DNA from: a virus
DNA: 23,851 nucleotides
Virus record (IMG/VR): IMGVR_UViG_3300007619_000010
Coordinates: 1 to 23,851 of that record
Strand: one strand, 5' to 3'
Positions within the stretch are counted from its first letter, which is position 1. The number at the start of each line of letters is the position of its first letter. A program made the translations under genes and the position numbers. Below the pieces are notes generated by a model. It saw only the letters and a list, made by a program, of their open reading frames with translations. It did no database searches and was not told the DNA's origin. Shown one piece after another: positions 6,764 to 22,875 of the stretch.

Positions 6764-6792
6764 TTGACAATAACAACAACAAACATTAAACT
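6764..6792 (+). promoter_or_regulatory. Sigma70-type promoter candidate in the gap before the capsid genes
   Basis: TTGACA (6764-6769, perfect -35) is followed after exactly 17 bases by TAAACT (6787-6792, 4 of 6 matches to TATAAT). It lies in the only sizeable gap (6733-6873, 141 bases) of the head operon. RNA would start near 6799, upstream of the terminator at 6823-6866, so any transcript from it must pass that terminator to reach the protease, scaffold and capsid genes. Confidence 0.45.
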
Positions 6793-6822: not shown

Positions 6823-6866
6823 AAAGGCCAAACAACCTTCTCAAGGCGGGTTGTTTGGCCTTTTTT
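6823..6866 (+). terminator. Intrinsic terminator touching the protease start
   Basis: AAAGGCCAAACAACC (6823-6837) and GGTTGTTTGGCCTTT (6849-6863) form a perfect 15-bp stem with an 11-base loop, and the stem runs into six T residues (6861-6866). This is a textbook Rho-independent terminator for the packaging-portal transcript. It is unusual that the next gene starts only 7 bases after the T-tract (ATG 6874; TTG 6865 is even inside it), so read-through control here would set the level of the capsid genes. Confidence 0.85.
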
Positions 6867-6873
6867 GATTTCA

Positions 6874-7905
6874 ATGGAAAACACATTAAAAGGCAAAGAC
6901 ATAGATTTTGTTTATCTGCCCACAGAGTATGCCACCGTAGTGGAACCGGGCGACCCCTTACCCTTGTTCCCCCTTGTATCTATATTTAAAAATGGGGTGG
7001 AACGTACCGCTGAAATTATAAGCAAACTTAAGCTACCTCATTTCTTGCCCCCTGTGAAACTGGGCAGCCACGAAGAGGGCACCCCGGCGGGCGCTCATAT
7101 CAAGGGGCTGTTTATTCGTGATGGTATGGTATGGGGGACACCAGAAATGAATGATAAGGGGGTCAAAGCTATTGCTGAAAAGCATTACAAATATTTATCA
7201 CCAGAAGTTATATGGGAAGGGGGACTAGAAGACCCCTTGACGGGTAATGTTATTCCCGCCCCTTTGATTGTAGGGGCAGCACTTTTACACACGCCCCATT
7301 TAGGCGAGGCCACCGCGCTTTATACGGTGGAACCTATAGAAAGTCATAAGGAGAAATTTACTATGACACAAGAAATGGACATGGTATCTGTTTCGACGCT
7401 TGAGAAGATTAAAGAGTTTTTCACCACATCTACTCATGATCCCGAACTACAGAAACCGGAACCACAGCAAGCCGCTGCCCCATCTGAGGATTACGCGGCA
7501 AAGCTCGAAGCAGCTAACAAAGAAGCAGAAAAGTACAAAGCCGAGGCCGAACGCCTGCAAGCCGAACGCCAACAGGGTGAGCGTATCTCTTACTTTGCAT
7601 CTGAGTTCAAAGAAGCAACGGCCGTCGCTGAGGACAAAGAGCTTCACACCTTGTTAGCTGGCTTGGATGAAGAGATCGCCAGGGAGCTTGTTACCAAGTT
7701 CAAGGCGCTATCAGCTCAAATCGATGAAAGTAATCTCACATCTGATGTGGGTGAGCAGTCAAACGGCGAAGGCGTAAATCAAGCATTGGTATTTGATGCG
7801 GCCGTGCGTAAGCACATGACCGAACACAAAGTAAACTACAATGCCGCTGTAAGCGCAGTTGCCAACCAACAGCCAGAATTATGGCAGGAGGTGAGCAATG
7901 GCTGA
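6874..7905 (+). CDS. Mu I-like prohead protease fused to scaffold region
   Basis: A 343-residue protein of the Mu gpI type. The N-terminal half (about 1-155) is the protease domain; it includes the PPVKLGSHEE stretch, GLFIRDGMVWGTPEMND, and KHYKYLSPEVIWE, which match Mu I-like proteases (the 'Y..lSP' segment is typical). The C-terminal half is Ala/Glu/Lys-rich coiled coil (about 200-240) and ends in a charged scaffold-type domain. ATG 6874 has no ribosome binding site, and TTG 6865 is the only other upstream option. A strong internal start at 7363 should make the scaffold alone. It would cleave scaffold during procapsid maturation. Confidence 0.85.
   Translation: MENTLKGKDIDFVYLPTEYATVVEPGDPLPLFPLVSIFKNGVERTAEIISKLKLPHFLPPVKLGSHEEGTPAGAHIKGLFIRDGMVWGTPEMNDKGVKAIAEKHYKYLSPEVIWEGGLEDPLTGNVIPAPLIVGAALLHTPHLGEATALYTVEPIESHKEKFTMTQEMDMVSVSTLEKIKEFFTTSTHDPELQKPEPQQAAAPSEDYAAKLEAANKEAEKYKAEAERLQAERQQGERISYFASEFKEATAVAEDKELHTLLAGLDEEIARELVTKFKALSAQIDESNLTSDVGEQSNGEGVNQALVFDAAVRKHMTEHKVNYNAAVSAVANQQPELWQEVSNG
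7348..7353 (+). promoter_or_regulatory. Strong internal ribosome binding site inside the protease gene
   Basis: AAGGAG, 9 bases before ATG 7363, which is in the protease reading frame. This is among the best Shine-Dalgarno sequences in the window and has no reason to exist inside a coding region unless it is used. By contrast, the protease's own start has none. Confidence 0.75.
7363..7905 (+). CDS. Nested in-frame scaffold protein (Mu gpZ-like)
   Basis: The same frame as the protease, read from the internal ATG at 7363 behind AAGGAG, gives a 180-residue acidic, helical protein starting MTQEMDMVS. It contains a Pro/Ala/Gln linker, a coiled coil rich in Ala, Glu and Lys, and a C-terminal helix-rich tail that should touch the capsid protein. 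Phage Mu is known to make its scaffold Z from the 3' part of gene I in exactly this manner, and many lambda-like phages do the same (C/Nu3). Many copies of scaffold and few of protease are needed, which fits the contrast in ribosome binding sites. Confidence 0.75.
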   Translation: MTQEMDMVSVSTLEKIKEFFTTSTHDPELQKPEPQQAAAPSEDYAAKLEAANKEAEKYKAEAERLQAERQQGERISYFASEFKEATAVAEDKELHTLLAGLDEEIARELVTKFKALSAQIDESNLTSDVGEQSNGEGVNQALVFDAAVRKHMTEHKVNYNAAVSAVANQQPELWQEVSNG

Positions 7906-8266
7906 GATACAAGGTGCTAATGTTCAAACAATCCCTGGCCTGTCTGTCTCTGGTGATATTAGCTCAAAGCAATATCATTTTGTTAAGGCAGCCTCAACTG
8001 CCAATCAGGTTATCGCCGTTGCCGGATCCACTGATGTTGCTATTGGTGTGTTGTTAGATGCACCAGACGCCGCGAACGAATCCGCACTAGTTGGGGCATT
8101 GGGTATTATGCCTCTGGTTGCTGGTACAAGCGTGATCACCTACGGCAGCCGTGTGGGTTATGACAGTACCGGCCGTGTCGGTACGTATGCGCTTAAAGTT
8201 GGCGTAGCGATGGAAGCCCCAGGCGCTGCTGGCGACATTATCAAAGTGCTGGTGACGGGCTTATAG
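7898..8266 (+). CDS. Capsid cement (decoration) protein, DUF2190-like
   Basis: 122 residues, beginning 8 bases before the protease stop behind AGGAGG. Small, neutral and rich in Gly/Ala/Val, predicted all-beta. The pattern 'F.KA.stanQV..a.....igvl.da..a...a.v...G...v.aG..i..G..v..d..G.......' followed by a closing I-K-V-L-V-T-G-L strand is typical of DUF2190 capsid cement proteins, which stabilise the expanded shell. It lies just before the major capsid gene, the normal position. Confidence 0.82.
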   Translation: MAEIQGANVQTIPGLSVSGDISSKQYHFVKAASTANQVIAVAGSTDVAIGVLLDAPDAANESALVGALGIMPLVAGTSVITYGSRVGYDSTGRVGTYALKVGVAMEAPGAAGDIIKVLVTGL

Positions 8267-8278
8267 GAGATATGAACA

Positions 8279-9223
8279 ATGGCTAAACCAACAGTAGCAG
8301 CAATTCGACCGACAACCAACCCGATCTTCACCAAAATGATGATCAGTTATATGAATGATGAAATGTCATTTGTGGCAACCAACGCCGCGCCAGTGGTACC
8401 GGTTAATGAGGAAAGCGGGACATACTTTACTTTCAGTTCTAAATACTGGTTTAAAGACCAATTAGAGCGCCGCGCCTATGGCGACACCTTCGCCCGCGCC
8501 GGGTATGATCTGGGTTCGGATACATACAAAACCCTGCATTGGGGTTTGGAGCATCCGATCCCGGTTGAACATCAGGCAACCAGTCAGACGCCAGCATCAT
8601 TAACCACGCTCGGCATTGAGTGGTTGGGTACGCAGTCCCTGATGCGCAAGGAAGAAGCGTTTGCCACCGACTTTATGACAACGTCGGTGTGGACGACGGA
8701 CGACACCACCGCACAAGATTGGGACACCACAGGCAATCCAATTAACGACGTGCGCACAGCAAAACGCACCATTCGCCAGGCGCTAGGCGTACCAGGTAAT
8801 GCGGCCGTTATGGGCGAAATCGTCTATGACGCGTTACATACCAACGCCGAAATCTTGGGTATGGTTCAGTATACCGAAAGTTTAACCGAAGATCGGCGCG
8901 ATGCCTTAATGGCGTCTGTGCTGGGTCTTGATTATCTCTTGGTGGGGCGAGCTGTGCGCAATACGGCCAACCTAGGCCAATCCGCAAGTTTATCCCCATT
9001 CATCGATGATGACTGCTTGGTGTGCATCATCAAGCCAGGTGCGGACATGATGACGGTTTCGAGTATGAAAACGTTTACATGGGCACCAGGCGGCGGGCAA
9101 GGTGAGATTTCAACCTACAATGAACCGCAAAGCCGAAACAGCACCATTTTGCAGCACGTCGAGCAATGGGATCAAAAATTGATTACCGCAGACGGCGGCT
9201 ATTTCTTTAGTGATATTGTGTAG
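8279..9223 (+). CDS. Major capsid protein
   Basis: The shell-forming protein (314 residues), behind AGGAGA 7 bases upstream. It follows protease, scaffold and cement genes as expected. Features: N-terminal SYMNDEMSFVATNAAPVVPV, a stretch around residue 75-100 (GYDLGSDTYKTLHWGLEHPI) that fits the extended E-loop region, TAKRTIRQALGVPGNAAVMG in the 'P-domain' spine helix and following strand, and ALMASVLGLDYLLVGRAV before the A-domain-like C-terminal half. No separate delta domain is visible because scaffold is a separate protein. The assignment rests on place, size and these patterns. Confidence 0.88.
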   Translation: MAKPTVAAIRPTTNPIFTKMMISYMNDEMSFVATNAAPVVPVNEESGTYFTFSSKYWFKDQLERRAYGDTFARAGYDLGSDTYKTLHWGLEHPIPVEHQATSQTPASLTTLGIEWLGTQSLMRKEEAFATDFMTTSVWTTDDTTAQDWDTTGNPINDVRTAKRTIRQALGVPGNAAVMGEIVYDALHTNAEILGMVQYTESLTEDRRDALMASVLGLDYLLVGRAVRNTANLGQSASLSPFIDDDCLVCIIKPGADMMTVSSMKTFTWAPGGGQGEISTYNEPQSRNSTILQHVEQWDQKLITADGGYFFSDIV

Positions 9224-9313: not shown

Positions 9314-10066
9314 ATGAAAAAGTATACAGGAAGTTGTTATCTTGGAGTGGTCGGTCCTGAAACCGGCTTTGTCGATTGCTGGATGTCAATCATGAACATT
9401 GAACGGCGTCCAGGTGATAGTATTCCCACATTCGTACAAGGGACAAAAGGATACGAGGGGCGTCAAGCGCACTTCAACAGATTTATTGAATCAGAACATG
9501 ATGTCATGTTCCTTTTAGATCATGACATGATATTCAGGGCAGACACATTAGAGCGTTTGCGCTCATGGGAGATGCCGTTTGTTAGCGGCTTTTACATGCG
9601 CCGTCGCCACTCTCCCATCGCCCCGGTATGGTATGACCCATACACTGGCGAATGGCCGCTGATGCCTTATTATGACTTGCCACCAAAAGACAAGCTTGTT
9701 CCGATTGGGGCAAGCGGCTGGGGTTGCATGCTCATACACCGCGAAGTTGTCGAAAAAACACGCGAATATTTGGGCGGTGAATGGGATGTGATAGAAGATG
9801 ATTGCGATGTGTGGGCAGACACCGGCGAGCCATTACGACCGAACAAAGACCCAATCGGTAGTGATATACGCTATCCACTTTATGCACTTAGGGCAGGGTA
9901 TCAGCTCATGGGCGACGGTGGGGTAATGGTCGGGCATATGTTTAACTTCCCTCTTTCTATAGAGAACTTCGAGCAGTTACCAGAAGAGCAGCGCCAGCAA
10001 TGGAAAGACAAGATTGTGAGTGATGTTCTGGACATACGCGAACAACTGAAAGGGGGTGGGTCATGA
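9314..10066 (+). CDS. GT-A fold glycosyltransferase
   Basis: 250 residues. The Rossmann-like half (about 40-100) holds FLLDHDMIF: Asp69-His-Asp71 is a D-x-D motif that binds the metal and nucleotide sugar in GT-A enzymes. GASGWGCMLIHREV (about 137-150) and SDIRYPLYALRAGYQLMGDG with GHMF near the end match the acceptor-side and late-His pattern of GT2-like transferases found often in phages. No signal peptide or membrane segment, so it acts in the cytoplasm. ATG preceded by AGGGGG, which may be hidden in the hairpin described above. First gene of the modification island; donor and acceptor unknown. Confidence 0.78.
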   Translation: MKKYTGSCYLGVVGPETGFVDCWMSIMNIERRPGDSIPTFVQGTKGYEGRQAHFNRFIESEHDVMFLLDHDMIFRADTLERLRSWEMPFVSGFYMRRRHSPIAPVWYDPYTGEWPLMPYYDLPPKDKLVPIGASGWGCMLIHREVVEKTREYLGGEWDVIEDDCDVWADTGEPLRPNKDPIGSDIRYPLYALRAGYQLMGDGGVMVGHMFNFPLSIENFEQLPEEQRQQWKDKIVSDVLDIREQLKGGGS

Positions 10067-10290
10067 AGGGTAAAATTAAAATAACGGGATACAACCCAGC
10101 AGCGGCAACCCACAGAATTTATATTGATGACGTAGACGTTAGCCACTTGGTGAACTCCGTTAGGTATGAATTGACTGCCGGCGGTGCCTGCCAAATAAAC
10201 ATTGGCTTTTTGGCGCTTGATGGGGTTGATATAGATGAGGCTGAATCCACATTGAGAACCTATGAGATTAAACCGGAGGCGCTATCATGA
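10063..10290 (+). CDS. Small hypothetical protein inside the island (75 aa)
   Basis: Begins with an ATGA overlap with the glycosyltransferase and ends with an ATGA overlap with the next one; GGGGGTGG lies upstream. The protein is probably a small beta fold: strands around KIKITGY, HRIYIDDVDVSHLVNSVRYELT, and ACQINIGFLALDGVDI. 'I.IDgvDVS..V.SV...' followed by a strand resembles small beta proteins that are common in phage structural operons. No leader-core layout, so it does not look like a peptide substrate of the SPASM enzyme, although that cannot be excluded. It could be a virion acceptor or an accessory subunit. Function unknown. Confidence 0.6.
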   Translation: MKGKIKITGYNPAAATHRIYIDDVDVSHLVNSVRYELTAGGACQINIGFLALDGVDIDEAESTLRTYEIKPEALS

Positions 10291-11147
10291 AAACATGCTT
10301 CATAACCGCCGGTGATATCAATTTTGCCTCTTCCAGAATGCGGGCGTATTGGGTAGCCGAAGAAATGGAAAACGCCGACGTGATTACGTTAGAAGATGTA
10401 GTGAGTGATCCTGACGGTATTTCCGGGTATGATGTTTGCATTTGGCAAAAGACCATTGATATTAATTTAATAAAGTCATTGCCTAAAACTCTTCACTATT
10501 GGGATGTGTGCGATCCTTCTTGGTGGTTTCAGCCAGAATATTGCCGCCAGGTATTAGAGTACACTTCGGGTGTAGTGTGCAGCAACGATGCCTTGGCCGA
10601 TGATTTTAAAGAATGGTCTGGCCTTGACAACGTCCACGCCATACCCGACCGGCTGAAGTTGTCGCACTTTCACAAGCGGCGGCAACACGTGGACACCGAC
10701 CATATACGGTTTATCTGGTTTGGCTACAGCATGAATCGCATTGCCTTATGGGGCGCGGTGGCTAACCTGCAACGCCTAAAAGCGAACGGCCACAAATTTA
10801 CATTGACAATTATGGATGATCGTCCAGACGCGCCGGTCAACTTTGATTTCCCCGTTCGTCATGTTAAATGGTCACTAGAAAACGAGGTGGACATATTAGC
10901 AGCACATGACGTCGCCTTATTGCCCCCTTACCCCGGCGCATGGGGCAGGGTGAAGAGTGATAACAAGAGCATGGCGTCTATCGCTTGCGGCCTACCTGCA
11001 TCAAGTGGCGTTTTGTATAAGCGACTTGAGGCTTGTGTTACTAGCCATGAGGAAAGGCAACGGATGGTAGATGATTACGCGGATGATATTGAGGAAATAT
11101 TTAATGTTCGGGAATCAGCCCACGAGTGGGAGGTGTTGTTATCATGA
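10287..11147 (+). CDS. GT-B-like glycosyltransferase (family 1/4 style)
   Basis: 286 residues, shorter than usual for GT-B (about 350). N-terminal Rossmann half opens with FITAGDINFASSRMRAYW; the 'S-S-R-x-R' helix is frequent in phage and capsule GT4-like enzymes. The C-terminal half starts about residue 140 with IRFIWFGYSMN and contains DVALLPPYPGAWGRVKSDNK followed by ASIACGLPA, which matches the donor-sugar site 'D....lP.......Ks.nK..ea.a.GlP'. GGAGG lies upstream and the start overlaps the previous stop. Sugar unknown. Family call from motif pattern only. Confidence 0.72.
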   Translation: MKTCFITAGDINFASSRMRAYWVAEEMENADVITLEDVVSDPDGISGYDVCIWQKTIDINLIKSLPKTLHYWDVCDPSWWFQPEYCRQVLEYTSGVVCSNDALADDFKEWSGLDNVHAIPDRLKLSHFHKRRQHVDTDHIRFIWFGYSMNRIALWGAVANLQRLKANGHKFTLTIMDDRPDAPVNFDFPVRHVKWSLENEVDILAAHDVALLPPYPGAWGRVKSDNKSMASIACGLPASSGVLYKRLEACVTSHEERQRMVDDYADDIEEIFNVRESAHEWEVLLS

Positions 11148-12682
11148 CTATTTATTATCTTTGCATGGATGACAACACCCCCAGCGGCGGCCGTCGCATT
11201 ATGTACCGTCATGTTGACATACTAAACGAGGCCGGAATTAATGCCGCTATCCTTCACAATGTGCCCGGTTTCCGCCTGACATGGTTCAAGAACGATACGG
11301 CCGTTGTTTACGGCGATGAGGTAAAAATAACACCAGAGGATTACATTGTTGTTCCTGAAACGCGGGGAATGGGCATTATGCAATCTAACCACCCGCGTAT
11401 TGTGATATTTAATCAAAACGTACACTACACATGGGCAGGCTACCAGGGCAACGAAACCAAAACGCCATACCACCGCGACAACCTAAAAGGCGTCATGGTG
11501 GTGAGTGAGCATAACAAGGAGCTGTTAGAATATGCCTTCCCATTCCTAACCGTTGACCGTGTTGTCGTGTCACTGGATGCCGATCTATTCACCTTCTCAG
11601 ACAAGAAAGAAAAAATTATTGCTTACATGCCGCGCCGGGGCAGTCATGACCTCATGCAAGTGCTTCAGGTGCTAAAATGGCGTGGTGCTTTAGAGGGATG
11701 GCGGCTAGTCCCAATTCAAGGATTAAGTCATTGGGAAACGGCCGACGTGTTGAAACGCGCCGCTATTTTTCTAAGCAGCGGTTATCAAGAGGGTTGTCCT
11801 ATGCCACCGTTAGAAGCGGCGGCAAGCGGGTGCCAGGTGATTGGATATGATGGTTTTGGCGGGGCTGAATATTTCGATAGTATCCACGGGATCAATCCGA
11901 ACGCGGGCGACATTAAGCACTTTGCAGAAGAAATCGAGCTTTTTGTTAAAACTTTTAACAATGGGCATTCGATTGGGTATAAGCACGGCTCTGATTATGC
12001 GCGAGATACGTACAGCCGTGAAAACGAACGCGCCAGCGTGTTAGCCTTCTGGCGGCAGTTTGAGCAACCCACATGGAATGAGTATCAACATTATTGGAAC
12101 AACGTAACCGAAGGTCGCAATGTGGACAGTGTGACTACCCACATGTCACAGGCAGAATATGACGAATATTACAAGCCGATATTAGACAAGATATTGAACG
12201 GCTCAAAGCCTAAGATTATCTTTGACGTTGGCTGCGGTGGCGGCATGATTGTTAATTCACTTAAAGAGCGTTTCGGACAGATGCGGTATATCGGTCTGGA
12301 CATTAATCCGAATATGATAGCCGCCGGACGTGAAAGGTATCCGCAATATGATTGGCGGGTGCTGGACGAGTTCAAGTTACCAACGGGCGGCGACTTGCTG
12401 CTATGTCACTCGGTATTTACCCACATTTATGAAGATGACGCTAATGATTATCTTGATGCTATTCATGAGGCAATTGCCCCCCACGGCCGTGCTTCTATCA
12501 GCATTCATATAGACCACGCCACAGAAGACAACCCCTTCGTGGGCAACATTGGGCGCTGTGACTATCATCCGCCCTACTTTGAGAACAAGCTAAAAGAACA
12601 TGGATTAACGGTGGTTGATTACATTGACGGTCCCTTACCACACGGCCCACAGCGGTATTACATTGTAGAGGTGTCATCATGA
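11144..12682 (+). CDS. Glycosyltransferase-methyltransferase fusion
   Basis: Start chosen at ATG 11144 (ATGA with the previous stop, GGGAGGTG upstream); a GTG/TTG-type extension would add six residues. The 512-residue protein has a GT-B-like N-terminal part (about 1-315) with GCPMPPLEAAASGCQVIGYD, the donor-site signature 'P.LEAaa.Gc.v...', and a class I SAM methyltransferase C-terminal part (about 325-512): motif I FDVGCGGGMI around Asp361, acidic LDIN after strand 2, and LLCHSVFTHIYEDDANDYL. Such fusions typically add a sugar and then methylate it. Acceptor unknown. Confidence 0.82.
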   Translation: MTIYYLCMDDNTPSGGRRIMYRHVDILNEAGINAAILHNVPGFRLTWFKNDTAVVYGDEVKITPEDYIVVPETRGMGIMQSNHPRIVIFNQNVHYTWAGYQGNETKTPYHRDNLKGVMVVSEHNKELLEYAFPFLTVDRVVVSLDADLFTFSDKKEKIIAYMPRRGSHDLMQVLQVLKWRGALEGWRLVPIQGLSHWETADVLKRAAIFLSSGYQEGCPMPPLEAAASGCQVIGYDGFGGAEYFDSIHGINPNAGDIKHFAEEIELFVKTFNNGHSIGYKHGSDYARDTYSRENERASVLAFWRQFEQPTWNEYQHYWNNVTEGRNVDSVTTHMSQAEYDEYYKPILDKILNGSKPKIIFDVGCGGGMIVNSLKERFGQMRYIGLDINPNMIAAGRERYPQYDWRVLDEFKLPTGGDLLLCHSVFTHIYEDDANDYLDAIHEAIAPHGRASISIHIDHATEDNPFVGNIGRCDYHPPYFENKLKEHGLTVVDYIDGPLPHGPQRYYIVEVSS

Positions 12683-13974
12683 ATATCGTCATTTGTAACC
12701 CCGTTGAGGTGCTAGATAGCGGCGAGCGTGTTTGTTTGTTCCCCTCACGTTGGGACGCAACCGGCAAGCGCAACCGCTTTCATTATTACCCATACGAACT
12801 GGCCTACCTCTCCGCCTTATTGAAGCGCGAATTACCAAATGCGAACGTGACGATGATTGATGCCAACATTGAAGGGCTGAATGTGGAGCAATGTATAGAG
12901 CGTGTGAAGCCGCTCAAGCCTGATGTGTTTATTACAGAATGCAGCGCCGTAACATATAAAGAAATGACGCGGGTCATGCAGGCGCTAGGCGTTAAGTCAA
13001 TCTTGACCGGGCCTTATGGTATGTACAACATGTCTTATGCTTTAGATGATAGATGGTCATTTGTGGTCAGTGGTGAATATGAGATCAATGTACTGAGCTA
13101 CCTTAAAGAAGAGAGGGCGACCGCTGGCTATATCGATCTTGACTGGTTGCCCTGGCCAGAGGATGAGGACATCAGCCGCATTAACTACGTTGAGGGTGCA
13201 AATCTCATTGATGGGCAAGTACAAGTCTATCCTACGCGTGGCTGCCCACTATCATGCTCGTTTTGCGTCGTGCCTATGTATTACGGTGGGCACGGCAAGA
13301 GCCACAAAAGCCACCGGATGCGTGATGTTAATGATGTATGTGATGAACTGGAATATCTCGCCCAAAAATACAACGGCCGTTTCAGCGGTGCATTTTTCAA
13401 TGAAGAAACGCACAACGCTAATCCCGAATGGCTGACATTATTTTGTGAGACACTCATAAAAAAAGGATTGGATAAATACCAGTATGACGCCATGTGTGGT
13501 TACTGGCCTATGACTGAGGATTTAATCAAGATCATGTCACGGGCGGGTTATCGTCAAATACGGGTAGGCATTGAATCATTTAGTGAGGACGTGGGCAAGC
13601 GTATCAAAAAGGTTGTTTTTGAAGATAAATTTATGCGTTTTGCCGAATGGTGCCACAAGTACGATGTCAAAGTGTACGGTACGCTGCAAGTGGGGGCGCA
13701 GGGATCGACGTTTGAAAAGGACATGGCAACCCTAAAAGCAGTCAAAGAGCTAAAGAAAAAGGGGCTGCTTTACAATTGGCAGCACAGCGTTAGCACACCG
13801 CAAGCGGGCACGCCCTACCATGCAGAAGTACGTGAAAGCGGCCTGATGTTTGTGGATGATAACGCCATCAGCGGCAGTCGGGCGAGCGTGTCATGGCCTG
13901 ATTATCCAGCATGGCAGATCAACCAGGCACGCAAGATATTCCAGAGCGTACAGCCAGAGGCGGGCATATGCTAA
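12679..13974 (+). CDS. Radical SAM enzyme with B12-binding-like N-terminal domain
   Basis: 431 residues. The N-terminal 150 or so look like a cobalamin-binding Rossmann domain (YPYELAYLSALLKRELPNAN, then SILTGPYGMY and VVSGEYEINVLSYL, a common arrangement in B12-dependent radical SAM enzymes), though no DxHxxG is seen, so base-off B12 binding is uncertain. Residues 186-196 carry the 4Fe-4S loop RGCPLSCSFC (Cys189, 193, 196, CxxxCxxC). A TIM-barrel follows with VGIESFSEDV (GxIxxGxES-type) and late GTLQVGAQG. Family members methylate unreactive carbons or rearrange substrates. ATGA start. Substrate probably a sugar or sugar-linked group. Confidence 0.85.
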   Translation: MNIVICNPVEVLDSGERVCLFPSRWDATGKRNRFHYYPYELAYLSALLKRELPNANVTMIDANIEGLNVEQCIERVKPLKPDVFITECSAVTYKEMTRVMQALGVKSILTGPYGMYNMSYALDDRWSFVVSGEYEINVLSYLKEERATAGYIDLDWLPWPEDEDISRINYVEGANLIDGQVQVYPTRGCPLSCSFCVVPMYYGGHGKSHKSHRMRDVNDVCDELEYLAQKYNGRFSGAFFNEETHNANPEWLTLFCETLIKKGLDKYQYDAMCGYWPMTEDLIKIMSRAGYRQIRVGIESFSEDVGKRIKKVVFEDKFMRFAEWCHKYDVKVYGTLQVGAQGSTFEKDMATLKAVKELKKKGLLYNWQHSVSTPQAGTPYHAEVRESGLMFVDDNAISGSRASVSWPDYPAWQINQARKIFQSVQPEAGIC

Positions 13975-14627
13975 CCATTATTCTCACCTCATACAACCGG
14001 CCTTGGCTGGTAAAGCGTGCCATTCAAAGCCTTCTAAACCAGACCGATCCAAATTGGCGTTTGATTATCCAAGACGACGGAAGCGACATAGAAACGTTGC
14101 AAGCAATTAACATGTTCAACGATAACCGTATTGGCGTCATTGAACACACCACCAGCGACGAAGAGCGCAGGCAAAAAAGCCGCTATGCAGTCCTCATCAA
14201 TCAAGCCTATATGCTGGTAAACGGATTCACGCTGGTTGGTTACATGTGCGACAACGTCGAATATGACGAGGAAATGGTAGAAAGCGTCAACCGTTATTTT
14301 GAATACAATCCTGATGTTTGGAACGGGTATATTTTGCAAACGCGTGATGTTTGGGAAGCCGAAACAATGCAACCGGCTGGCACCGCGCAAAGTTTTGGGC
14401 ATTGGCCGGAATTGCCCCCACTCGAGACACCGATCACCAACCCACGAGGGCTTTTAGACCATTCACAAGTTTTTCACAGGTTGCCAGTGTCAGCGCGATG
14501 GGAAGAAGATATTAATGCGGTAAAGTGCGGTGATGCCGTATTCTTTGAACGATTAATAGCCGAACATGGGGCGATTCGTCCGATACGGCCGGGGAAAGTA
14601 TTAAGCTATGAGCACGTCCTACATTAA
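13968..14627 (+). CDS. Family 2 (GT-A) glycosyltransferase
   Basis: Start ATG 13968, overlapping the previous gene by seven bases, chosen because MLTIILTSYNRPWLVKRAIQ is the standard GT2 N-terminus; an upstream in-frame start at 13911 would add 19 residues of unrelated type. 219 residues: LLNQTDPNWRLIIQDDGSD (nucleotide site 'W.L.I.DDgS.d'), GFTLVGYMCDNVEYDEEM (the DxD-equivalent position), and LDHSQVFHRL with DAVFFERLI (acceptor region). A compact GT2 with no membrane helix. Second GT-A enzyme in the island, so it probably adds a different residue from the first. Confidence 0.85.
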   Translation: MLTIILTSYNRPWLVKRAIQSLLNQTDPNWRLIIQDDGSDIETLQAINMFNDNRIGVIEHTTSDEERRQKSRYAVLINQAYMLVNGFTLVGYMCDNVEYDEEMVESVNRYFEYNPDVWNGYILQTRDVWEAETMQPAGTAQSFGHWPELPPLETPITNPRGLLDHSQVFHRLPVSARWEEDINAVKCGDAVFFERLIAEHGAIRPIRPGKVLSYEHVLH

Positions 14628-15666
14628 CCCGCCGCGCAAACTACTACATCATATTGACCACGTTGTCGAAATACGTAACGGCCGTAAACCCGCGCCTGTA
14701 AATGTTGAAATAGATTTATCAAACCGTTGTTCGCTGGGCTGTGAATGGTGTCACTTTGCCTACACTCACACCAAAGGGCCGCTTGCCAATAAAGTGCCCT
14801 CACCAGCGGGCAAAGAGGCGGGCGGCGATTTGATGGACAAGGATTTAGCCTTGTTTATCATGCAAGACCTAACAACCTTCGGCGTCAAGTCAATCACTTG
14901 GACGGGCGGCGGCGAACCAACCCTACACCCCCACTTTGATGAGATTATTAACACCTGTCCTATTGAACAAGGTGTCTATACCCACGGCGGGCACATTAAC
15001 CAGAAACGTGCCGCCTTAATGAAACGGCGTATGAAGTGGGTATATATCAGTCTCGATGAGTGCATGCCAGAGATGTACAAAAAGAGCAAGGGGGTTGATC
15101 GCTTTGCTGATGTCTTGGCAGGTGTTACCAGACTAGTCGAGGCTGACGGTGATGCGGTTATTGGTTTGGGTTTCATGCTTCACAAAAACAATTGGCGACA
15201 AGCAACAGAAATGGTAAATCTTGGACGTTCGTTGGGGGTTGATTATATTCAATTCAGACCAACAATTCTATACAAACACGATGCACCAAACATAGCAGAT
15301 GAGTATACAACCTGGGTTGACGGGGCAATTAGTTACCTGTTAGCATATCAAGACGATCCATTCATTCATGCAGACGTTGACCGTTTTTACATGTACAAGA
15401 ATTGGGAACGGTCGTATGAAACATGTTATTGGACGCAACTGCAAAGCGTTATCACGCCTAATGGCAAGGTCTGGACGTGCGTTAACAAACGCGAATATGC
15501 AGGCGAATGCCTAGGCGACTTAACAAAAGAATCATTTAGTGAAATATGGCAGCGGAGCGGGTCATGCCAAGTTAGTGACAATTGCCGCCTGATGTGTCGG
15601 GGGCATATTCCCAATCTGACACTCAATGAGATGATGACCCCTCCCGCACACAAGGAGTTTATTTGA
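14608..15666 (+). CDS. Radical SAM/SPASM-domain enzyme
   Basis: 352 residues. Cys41, Cys45 and Cys48 (NRCSLGCEWCHF) form the CxxxCxxC loop; TGGGEPTLHP near residue 107 is the GGEP SAM-binding motif; VYISLDEC sits in the barrel. The C-terminal part has a SPASM-type cysteine set: CX12GX4C (CYWTQLQSVITPNGKVWTC) followed by CX5CX3C (CQVSDNCRLMC), enough for at least one extra iron-sulphur cluster. SPASM enzymes modify peptides, sugars or other substrates by radical chemistry. It overlaps the GT2 gene by 20 bases. Together with a B12-type radical SAM enzyme, that points to an unusual modified moiety. Substrate unknown. Confidence 0.88.
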   Translation: MSTSYINPPRKLLHHIDHVVEIRNGRKPAPVNVEIDLSNRCSLGCEWCHFAYTHTKGPLANKVPSPAGKEAGGDLMDKDLALFIMQDLTTFGVKSITWTGGGEPTLHPHFDEIINTCPIEQGVYTHGGHINQKRAALMKRRMKWVYISLDECMPEMYKKSKGVDRFADVLAGVTRLVEADGDAVIGLGFMLHKNNWRQATEMVNLGRSLGVDYIQFRPTILYKHDAPNIADEYTTWVDGAISYLLAYQDDPFIHADVDRFYMYKNWERSYETCYWTQLQSVITPNGKVWTCVNKREYAGECLGDLTKESFSEIWQRSGSCQVSDNCRLMCRGHIPNLTLNEMMTPPAHKEFI

Positions 15667-20466: not shown

Positions 20467-22875
20467 ATGGGCATAATTGCAATACTAAGCCAGGGAAGGA
20501 AAAAAGTTTCTTTAACTGACTCACCATACAAGATTGATTTAGGTTATGTTCCGCCGTCGCCCGAATCAATTCCGTTGTTAGCTACGGGCACGGCCGCCAA
20601 CAGGAGCGGAGCCGTTAAGCGTGGCGAAACACCGCAAAGCCGACAACTGCAATTTACTATAACTGTAAGCGGGTCAAGTGAAGCACAATGTCGCATGTCA
20701 GCCACCCCCTTCTTGGCACTTCTACAAGCGGCCGGCGATGAAACCAACCCGGTTTGTTTTGAGTTCAAAGGCAATGACGATGTTCCATTCGAGCCGCTTT
20801 GGGGACAGTATGGGGCAAACTCGCGCTACATCATTGCACACCTGAACACGGTCAATGTTTGGCCCGAATATGGAAACGGAATGTTAAGAAATGCGCGTGT
20901 TAAATATCAAGTGTCTTGTCTTGTGAAGCCCCACTATTTAGGGCTTCGGCAGCGATTGGGCCGCGCCGCCGGCGGGTTGTTTGAGGACAATATTACCACC
21001 GCTGATGGGTTAAGTCGGGGGATAACCATCTCTCAAACTGAAGTAAACAAAATGACCAACCCCATGTTCGGCCATTCGACCTGGAATACTAACTGGTCAG
21101 CCGGGGCAGGTATCACAGCGACGGAAAACACCGACGAGGACTTTATTATTTTTGGCGGTAGCAGCGCCAAACTAACGGCAACGGGATCGTCATCGCGCAC
21201 GTTTTCGCAAAGTATTGATGTGGGTAACACCGGCGGCTATACATTGTCTTGCTATGCAAAACTTAAGGACGGGTCGGCCGTGTCCTCATCTTCGTTATCG
21301 CTCCTGTACGGTGCGACCTCATTAACAGAAACATACACGGCCGTGGGCAATGGCTGGTATAGGGTAGCAGCCAGCTTTACCGGAATTGCATCAGCGCAAT
21401 CGGTTGGGGTTGTGGTTGTGGAAGATTACACCGTATACATAGATATGATACAAATTGAGCAAAACGGATTTGCTACCTCCCCATTTTACGGCGATATGAT
21501 GGGGGTTGCCTGGAGCGGCACAGCGCACGAAAGCACAAGCACTCGCACAGATGCGGTATTGAGTTATCCATCATCTGATTTGCTGAACATAGCCGAGGGC
21601 ACCATACGAATTGTATGGCGAGCGAACCGTGACAGCACCGATTACAGCAGCACCGGTTATTTTTGCCAGGCGTCCACTACAGGTATGCGAGTCACGTACA
21701 ACAGCACCGGTACCGATTTTCGCTTCACTGACGGCACGAACACCATTGATGGGGCGGCCGATACCTTTAGCACAAACGAGATTATTGTGTTACACGCTGT
21801 TTACTCGCCCACGGGATTGGTTCTATATAAAAACGGGGTGAGCGTAGCCAGCGGCGCGTCATACACGCCGGCGGCATTTTCCGGCCGTCTTTACATTGGT
21901 TCAGATAGTGCAACGGGTGCTTTTATGTCAGGCGTCTATTTAGGCTTTGCCACATACGACCGAGCGATGACATCAGCCCAGGCATTAGCCGACTATACCA
22001 ATATATCGGCGCAAGTGAACGGGGGTGATGGCTTGGGGCAGCAACTCGAACCACTACCCTGGCTTTGGACAAAAGATGGCGACGACGTTGTTGATAATTG
22101 TAACGATTCAAGCCGTGACAACTTCGCTGTATGCGGCGGCATACCGGGCAATGTACCCGCCGAAACATGGTACAACTTAGAAGCATCTGTCCCGTTGACA
22201 ACGTGTGAATCATTATGGCTGAGTTTGCTAGACGTTGACTTCTTTGTCGATCCCGGCGACGTGGCCTATGTGGAATTCGACGGCACCAGCGACTCAGGTT
22301 CATCGGGCGGAGAATATCAGGGGGCCACCTGGTCAACAACATATGTTGAATACCTTATAAGTACATCGTCTTTGCCTGGGGTAATCAAACGACAACTGCT
22401 TGGCAGAAGCTACCAAGCGCTTGTTAGGCTGTATGACGCGGGTACGGATTTAGATTTAAAAGGGCGTGATGAGTCAAGTGATATAGTTTTAACCGAAGCT
22501 AACTATCTGCCGGATGGGTCGTCAGCTTTTCGTTTACATGCTGCCCCGCCAATGACGGTGACGGCATCGGAGTTTTCCCAGTTTGGGTATGACTATATCG
22601 CACTTTCCTTTGGCGTTTACATTGGTCGAACGACGGGATCGACAGCGGGTCGAATAGATTATATTCAATTTATGTATCGGCCGTTTATTCGTGTCAAATC
22701 GTCAGCAACGGTTGTTAATGCTCAAGTTTTCTTGCGTGGACGCTTGGCACAAGAGTATCCTAGCGGTAATGGCTTGGCTGGAAAATTCGTAACGCTTGGA
22801 GATGAAGTTGATTTGCGACCAAACAAAGTAAATATTCTTATGTCCGTATGGGTGATCACACCGTTGATCCATTGA
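20467..22875 (+). CDS. Distal tail protein with two sugar-binding-type modules
   Basis: 802 residues, large for a distal tail protein because of inserted modules. Residues about 1-165 form a Dit-like beta domain (SPYKIDLGYVPPSPESIP, RQLQFTITVSGSSEAQCR). About 195-340 resemble a CBM4_9-like jelly roll (TNPMFGHSTWNTNWSAG; GWYRVAASFTG; VYIDMIQIEQNGFATSPF). About 345-515 read as a LamG/concanavalin-like fold (LNIAEGTIRIVWRANRD; LVLYKNGVSVASG; GRLYIGSD; YLGFATYDRAMT). The remainder (about 520-802) is another beta-rich domain without a clear family. Such modules suggest binding to host surface glycans. Confidence 0.72.
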   Translation: MGIIAILSQGRKKVSLTDSPYKIDLGYVPPSPESIPLLATGTAANRSGAVKRGETPQSRQLQFTITVSGSSEAQCRMSATPFLALLQAAGDETNPVCFEFKGNDDVPFEPLWGQYGANSRYIIAHLNTVNVWPEYGNGMLRNARVKYQVSCLVKPHYLGLRQRLGRAAGGLFEDNITTADGLSRGITISQTEVNKMTNPMFGHSTWNTNWSAGAGITATENTDEDFIIFGGSSAKLTATGSSSRTFSQSIDVGNTGGYTLSCYAKLKDGSAVSSSSLSLLYGATSLTETYTAVGNGWYRVAASFTGIASAQSVGVVVVEDYTVYIDMIQIEQNGFATSPFYGDMMGVAWSGTAHESTSTRTDAVLSYPSSDLLNIAEGTIRIVWRANRDSTDYSSTGYFCQASTTGMRVTYNSTGTDFRFTDGTNTIDGAADTFSTNEIIVLHAVYSPTGLVLYKNGVSVASGASYTPAAFSGRLYIGSDSATGAFMSGVYLGFATYDRAMTSAQALADYTNISAQVNGGDGLGQQLEPLPWLWTKDGDDVVDNCNDSSRDNFAVCGGIPGNVPAETWYNLEASVPLTTCESLWLSLLDVDFFVDPGDVAYVEFDGTSDSGSSGGEYQGATWSTTYVEYLISTSSLPGVIKRQLLGRSYQALVRLYDAGTDLDLKGRDESSDIVLTEANYLPDGSSAFRLHAAPPMTVTASEFSQFGYDYIALSFGVYIGRTTGSTAGRIDYIQFMYRPFIRVKSSATVVNAQVFLRGRLAQEYPSGNGLAGKFVTLGDEVDLRPNKVNILMSVWVITPLIH

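Follow-up and report, generated by a model that had tools for sequence, protein, structure and literature searches.

A chimeric phage gene with a Mu-like protease, a Kovu/Chi-like scaffold, and a putative internal start at their join

The gene at positions 6874 to 7905 of the window, i.e., the whole analysed stretch of 23,851 nucleotides from the viral record IMGVR_UViG_3300007619_000010, is most likely a chimeric nested protease/scaffold gene that works like genes I and Z of phage Mu, with a long form that is probably scarce and a short scaffold that is probably present in excess. The anatomy of the sequence, the homology of both halves, and the conservation of the internal start were observed directly. 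The chimeric composition of the gene and the location of the internal start at the join are the new aspects of the current analysis.

Nested reading frames and their upstream region

The features of the gene and its surroundings, all on the plus strand, are as follows.

6764 to 6792, plus strand: weak promoter-like site TTGACA-17-TAAACT (consensus scan, 10 of 12 matches; such sites are no commoner than in shuffled sequences)
6823 to 6866, plus strand: intrinsic terminator, composed of a near-perfect stem of 15 to 16 bp and a T6 run, with its end 7 nt upstream of ATG 6874 (z of -3.9; the stem dominates the fold)
6874 to 7905, plus strand: long (I-like) form, predicted head maturation protease fused to a scaffold, 343 residues, ATG without a Shine-Dalgarno (SD) sequence (PF10123, phrog_328, SD scan)
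6943 to 7326, plus strand: protease domain, residues 24 to 151 approximately, with the conserved Y-L-S-P motif (S109) and the histidine candidates H56 and H66 (alignments and profile; the best PDB matches of the model are T4 gp21 and herpesvirus proteases)
7348 to 7353, plus strand: internal SD sequence AAGGAG (-9.3 kcal/mol, 9-nt spacer)
7363 to 7905, plus strand: short (Z-like) form, putative scaffold of 180 residues with its inferred internal start at M164 in a disordered linker (SD, family conservation, AlphaFold model)
7609 to 7902, plus strand: C-terminal scaffold domain, residues 246 to 343, homologous to Kovu/Chi-like scaffolds (23.1 bits with low bias; maximum of 9.7 in 600 shuffles)
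7898 to 8266, plus strand: decoration/cement protein (profile matches, gene context)
8279 to 9223, plus strand: major capsid protein of the Kovu/RDJL/Chi-like group (phrog_1005, 1.9e-53)

The sequence-only reading had described an ATG at 6874 devoid of an SD sequence and an AAGGAG 9 bases ahead of an in-frame ATG at 7363, and both observations were confirmed. The best pairing with the generic anti-SD ACCUCCUUA, which may not be that of the host, is -1.5 kcal/mol for ATG 6874 (5' sequence ttttttgatttca) versus -9.3 kcal/mol for ATG 7363, which opens a frame of 180 codons starting with MTQEM. The median SD of the 23 confident gene starts of the window is -7.3 kcal/mol, the start of gene I being among the joint weakest, and a strength of -9.3 kcal/mol is reached by 2 of the 128 internal in-frame ATGs of the window genes. 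Two further internal in-frame starts of the gene, ATG 7147 and TTG 7237, have values of -8.4, and synonymous-codon shuffles of this gene alone produce an SD-start at least as strong, within the 57-codon segment that holds ATG 7363, with a p value of 0.13. The lone AAGGAG-ATG site is therefore not decisive, and the case rests on its position and conservation. The sequences GUCAUA and UAUGAC (7344 to 7367) can pair, which would place AUG 7363 in the short stem and AAGGAG in the loop of a weak hairpin (-4.9 kcal/mol) and would speak against the internal start.

Upstream of ATG 6874, the frame offers one further start, TTG 6865, within the U-run of the terminator (-3.2). As protease starts, TTG 6865, GTG 6940, and TTG 6964 were rejected as no better than ATG 6874, and ATG 7147, which does have an SD sequence, would cut the protease domain.

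The terminator is by far the strongest terminator-like site on either strand of the window (score of 23 versus 14 for the next), and its location just before the start may weigh on the protease level perhaps as much as the missing SD sequence. A transcript of about 70 nt from the promoter-like site at 6764 to 6792 may run into it. The consensus scan detected no promoter-like site on the plus strand within positions 6874 to 7340, and the search for an upstream RNA element yielded no Rfam match in the window. A terminator before gene I was also considered as a family trait, but it is not general: it was found in 5 of 45 genes when counted from the chosen start and in 2 of 44 when counted from the open frame, versus 2% of random windows. 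In the Shewanella phage MuM16-1 (L109:930-983), the U-run of a terminator likewise directly precedes the start of a canonical protease, and in the Thermus phage Riverbug a hairpin is located close to the protease start.

Homology of the two halves and genomic context

The N-terminal half is related to the proteases of Mu-like phages, as documented by a Pfam match to Mu-like_Pro (PF10123; 31.4 bits versus the curated cut-off of 25.2), the assignment to phrog_328 (head maturation protease) in PHROGs, and a match of 7.7e-12 over residues 68 to 126 with a profile made without the window protein. The serine motif (R/K)YxSP, which is invariant in the alignments, is present as YKYLSP (S109). The DYEH histidine motif of Mu-like proteases could not be aligned with certainty, with H56 and H66 as candidates, and protease activity is therefore not assured. 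In the AlphaFold model (39 related sequences; mean pLDDT of 72), a beta-rich domain extends to about residue 150 and is followed by a disordered stretch (residues 152 to 177) containing M164, helices at residues 175 to 185 and 205 to 245 (the latter long), and a confident helical C-terminal domain. The best PDB match of the modelled N-domain is T4 gp21 (VIA Z of 7.3, rmsd of 3.6 over 116 residues; Foldseek E of 7e-3), and herpesvirus proteases are matched with VIA Z values of 4 to 5; that the VIA list lacks other PDB families carries no weight. Nothing relevant was retrieved by a direct sequence search against solved structures.

The C-terminal half has a different affiliation. Of the window protein and 45 Mu-type proteins, only the former is matched by a scaffold profile built from 75 Kovu/Chi-like proteins (residues 173 to 340; 2.8e-10, or 9e-9 with the relative L027 left out). 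The signal is retained by the C-terminal domain alone, outside the coiled coil, with 23.1 bits and low bias versus at most 9.7 bits in 600 shuffles. Conversely, homology to Mu Z was not detected, as the profile from the C-terminal halves of the 45 Mu-type proteins scores the window protein no better than shuffles. By sequence comparison, the gene is thus a chimera of a Mu-like protease (residues 1 to 150) and a Kovu/Chi-like scaffold that differs from Mu Z, which indicates that the scaffold part was acquired together with the capsid module, and the protease from a Mu-like source. The halves are joined at about residues 150 to 178, and the internal start sits at this join, within the disordered linker. 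The designation as a putative scaffold is based on the position of the gene, the helical structure, and the parallel with Mu; the related phrog_13547 is listed as a PHROG of unknown function.

The neighbourhood matches this affiliation, since the scaffold gene stands directly ahead of decoration and capsid genes that also belong to the Kovu/Chi-like group. The window capsid groups with those of the Arthrobacter phage Kovu, the Roseobacter phage RDJL Phi 1, KPP23, and Mulvp2, i.e., siphophages whose genomes measure about 60 kb. The siphovirus-type tail assumed in the sequence-only reading is weakly suggested by a single weak PHROG match to a major tail protein (E of 0.0036). The block between the capsid and tail genes (9314 to 15666) holds genes that are unusual in a structural operon: one product fuses a glycosyltransferase to a methyltransferase, another is a glycosyltransferase of family 2, and two are radical SAM proteins, of which one contains a SPASM domain. 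Furthermore, positions 20467 to 22875 encode a tail-region protein of 802 residues with a concanavalin-like (Laminin_G_3) domain.

Single-protein scans of viral contigs and genomes with the protease recovered no close homologue of the gene, and scans with the capsid and portal proteins recovered no relatives among viral contigs; relatives of the terminase were found, yet without any relative of gene 6874 to 7905. The same protease-scaffold build is present in L027, one of the 75 profile relatives (PF10123, 33.3 bits), and in L239, which is 84% identical to it. L027 carries CAGGAGGG upstream of an internal in-frame GTG, from which 183 codons remain, and codons 420 to 436 around this GTG are identical in both sequences. 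L027 (1741-3567) and L239 encode a triple fusion, located before the decoration gene, in which a 2'-5' RNA ligase/2H phosphoesterase domain precedes a Mu-like protease and a scaffold.

Internal starts in Mu-type and protease-less genes

Mu-type genes were gathered from phage records, bacterial genomes, and viral contigs, and the 134 complete genes were reduced to 46 representatives at 50% identity. The best SD-start located 4 to 60 residues past the protease domain has a mean of -8.0 kcal/mol in these representatives versus -5.6 in synonymous shuffles (Wilcoxon p of 1.6e-9), and no excess was found in four further segments of these genes. The SD-start pair is not lost in homologues: at the domain boundary, 93% of the 46 representatives retain a start whose SD sequence reaches -5.5 kcal/mol or better. 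The products left by these boundary starts mostly comprise 160 to 190 residues. The scaffold (Z) start is stronger than the best possible protease (I) start in 34 of 45 Mu-type genes, and the best available I start is weaker than -4 in 21 of 45. A weak protease start combined with a strong scaffold start is therefore a family feature to which the window gene conforms, and an internal initiation of its scaffold, comparable to Mu I/Z, is well supported by these comparisons.

In the Kovu group, the gene before the decoration and capsid genes mostly encodes 200 to 310 residues and lacks a Mu-like protease domain. An internal SD-start is nevertheless enriched 15 to 45 residues past an N-terminal SGVDHPA stub (mean of -8.3 versus -6.5 expected, p of 4e-4; 32 representatives with predicted N-terminal starts), and later segments of these 32 genes show no excess. 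Examples are an AAGGAGG upstream of an internal GTG in Kovu gp27, an AAGGAGG upstream of an internal ATG after a longer N-terminal part in RDJL gp72, and a GGAGG with an in-frame ATG or GTG past the N-terminal part in the gene before the decoration gene of L002, L003, L004, L042, L054, L063, L069, L084, L087, and others. A nested product is absent from all annotated records examined for Kovu/RDJL/Chi-like scaffold genes. The stub (EVSLVTRPAN / ETSGVDHPAH; L011:2657-3577 and relatives) shows a weak resemblance to the end of HK97-type prohead proteases (phrog_80, E of 0.007; phrog_617, E of 0.003), as if another fusion of protease and scaffold had left these scaffolds behind.

Proposed working, alternatives, and known systems

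In the proposed working, ATG 6874 would give rise to the protease-scaffold of 343 residues, probably in small amounts, because it lacks an SD sequence and lies directly behind the terminator hairpin. ATG 7363, with AAGGAG at good spacing, would yield the scaffold of 180 residues alone, probably in excess. The C-terminal domain shared by both products would bind the capsid protein, and the protease would therefore enter the prohead on a minority of the scaffold chains and later cut the scaffold away. We infer the making of both products, their ratio, their roles, and the protease activity.

A single full-length protein that cleaves itself in the linker to part protease from scaffold, with the AAGGAG-ATG pair arising by chance, would agree with the disordered linker of the AlphaFold model, with an SD sequence that is within chance for a single gene (p of 0.13), and with the other internal starts at -8.4. 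This explanation is nonetheless unlikely, as the enrichment of SD-starts at the boundary is family-wide and position-specific, the chimeric relatives L027 and L239 retain the pair, and a phage relying on ATG 6874, which is nearly free of initiation signals, would be short of scaffold. Even less probable is a silencing of gene I by the terminator, with a decaying protease half and the short scaffold as the only product, made via read-through or from transcripts starting inside the gene. The strong terminator ending 7 nt before ATG 6874, the missing SD sequence of this start, and the unrecognisable DYEH motif would fit such a decay, but the open frame of 163 codons, the conserved S-P motif, and the protease-like predicted fold argue for selection. 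Moreover, the plus strand from 6874 to 7340 is free of promoter-like sites, and the abutment of terminator and start in MuM16-1 coexists with a canonical protease.

The favoured reading, a nested gene with internal initiation of the scaffold, has its closest parallel in Mu, whose record annotates scaffold Z from an internal start in gene I, as the sequence-only reading had stated, with a separate ribosome binding site for Z (5 nt) and one for I (3 nt). Shared traits are the in-frame start past the protease domain, the product sizes (361/183 residues in Mu versus 343/180 in the window), a Z start that exceeds the weak I start in strength, the terminator upstream of I, and the position before the capsid gene. 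The window gene differs in that its scaffold half lacks homology to Z, its scaffold and capsid genes are separated by a decoration gene, and the capsid belongs to another group; in Mu, a predicted terminator and then the late promoter precede I, whereas the terminator of the window abuts the start. The earlier proposal of a conserved Mu strategy thus holds for the Mu-type protease gene with its internal scaffold start, but the Kovu/Chi-like scaffold half means that the gene of Mu is not simply conserved.

Beyond Mu, the P. aeruginosa Mu-like siphophages D3112, PaMx73, and JBD26 share the Mu-type protease-scaffold gene with an internal SD-start (PMC4378225; D3112 record), but their scaffold half is of the Mu type, unlike that of the window. 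The same nested strategy was reported in 2014 for these siphovirus-tailed Mu-like phages (PMC4378225), and the combination of the Mu strategy with a siphovirus tail is therefore not new. The Kovu/RDJL/Chi-like scaffold genes (phrog_13547, phrog_24785) have a homologous C-terminal domain and the same place before the decoration and capsid genes; they differ by mostly carrying the short SGVDHPA stub instead of a protease domain. The principle of a protease-scaffold accompanied by a scaffold made alone from the C-terminal half is also realised in lambda C/Nu3, with a protease of a different family, and in herpesvirus UL26/UL26.5, with an internal promoter instead of internal ribosome binding; these two systems were compared with the window at the level of the protease fold.

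With respect to evolution, the scaffold must match the capsid protein, and an internal start frees its production from whatever precedes it. We tentatively suggest, based on the sequence comparisons, that the internal start of the scaffold marks a boundary between modules and may outlive its protease, that Kovu/RDJL/Chi-like phages without a protease domain in this gene may make two scaffold forms, and that the protease half may be swapped, as in the window and L027, while scaffold production goes on undisturbed. The window gene illustrates how the protease and the scaffold can be exchanged one without the other in phages, as the internal start allows the scaffold to be made independently of the fused front part. 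Many scaffold genes that are annotated as one hypothetical protein may accordingly make two products.
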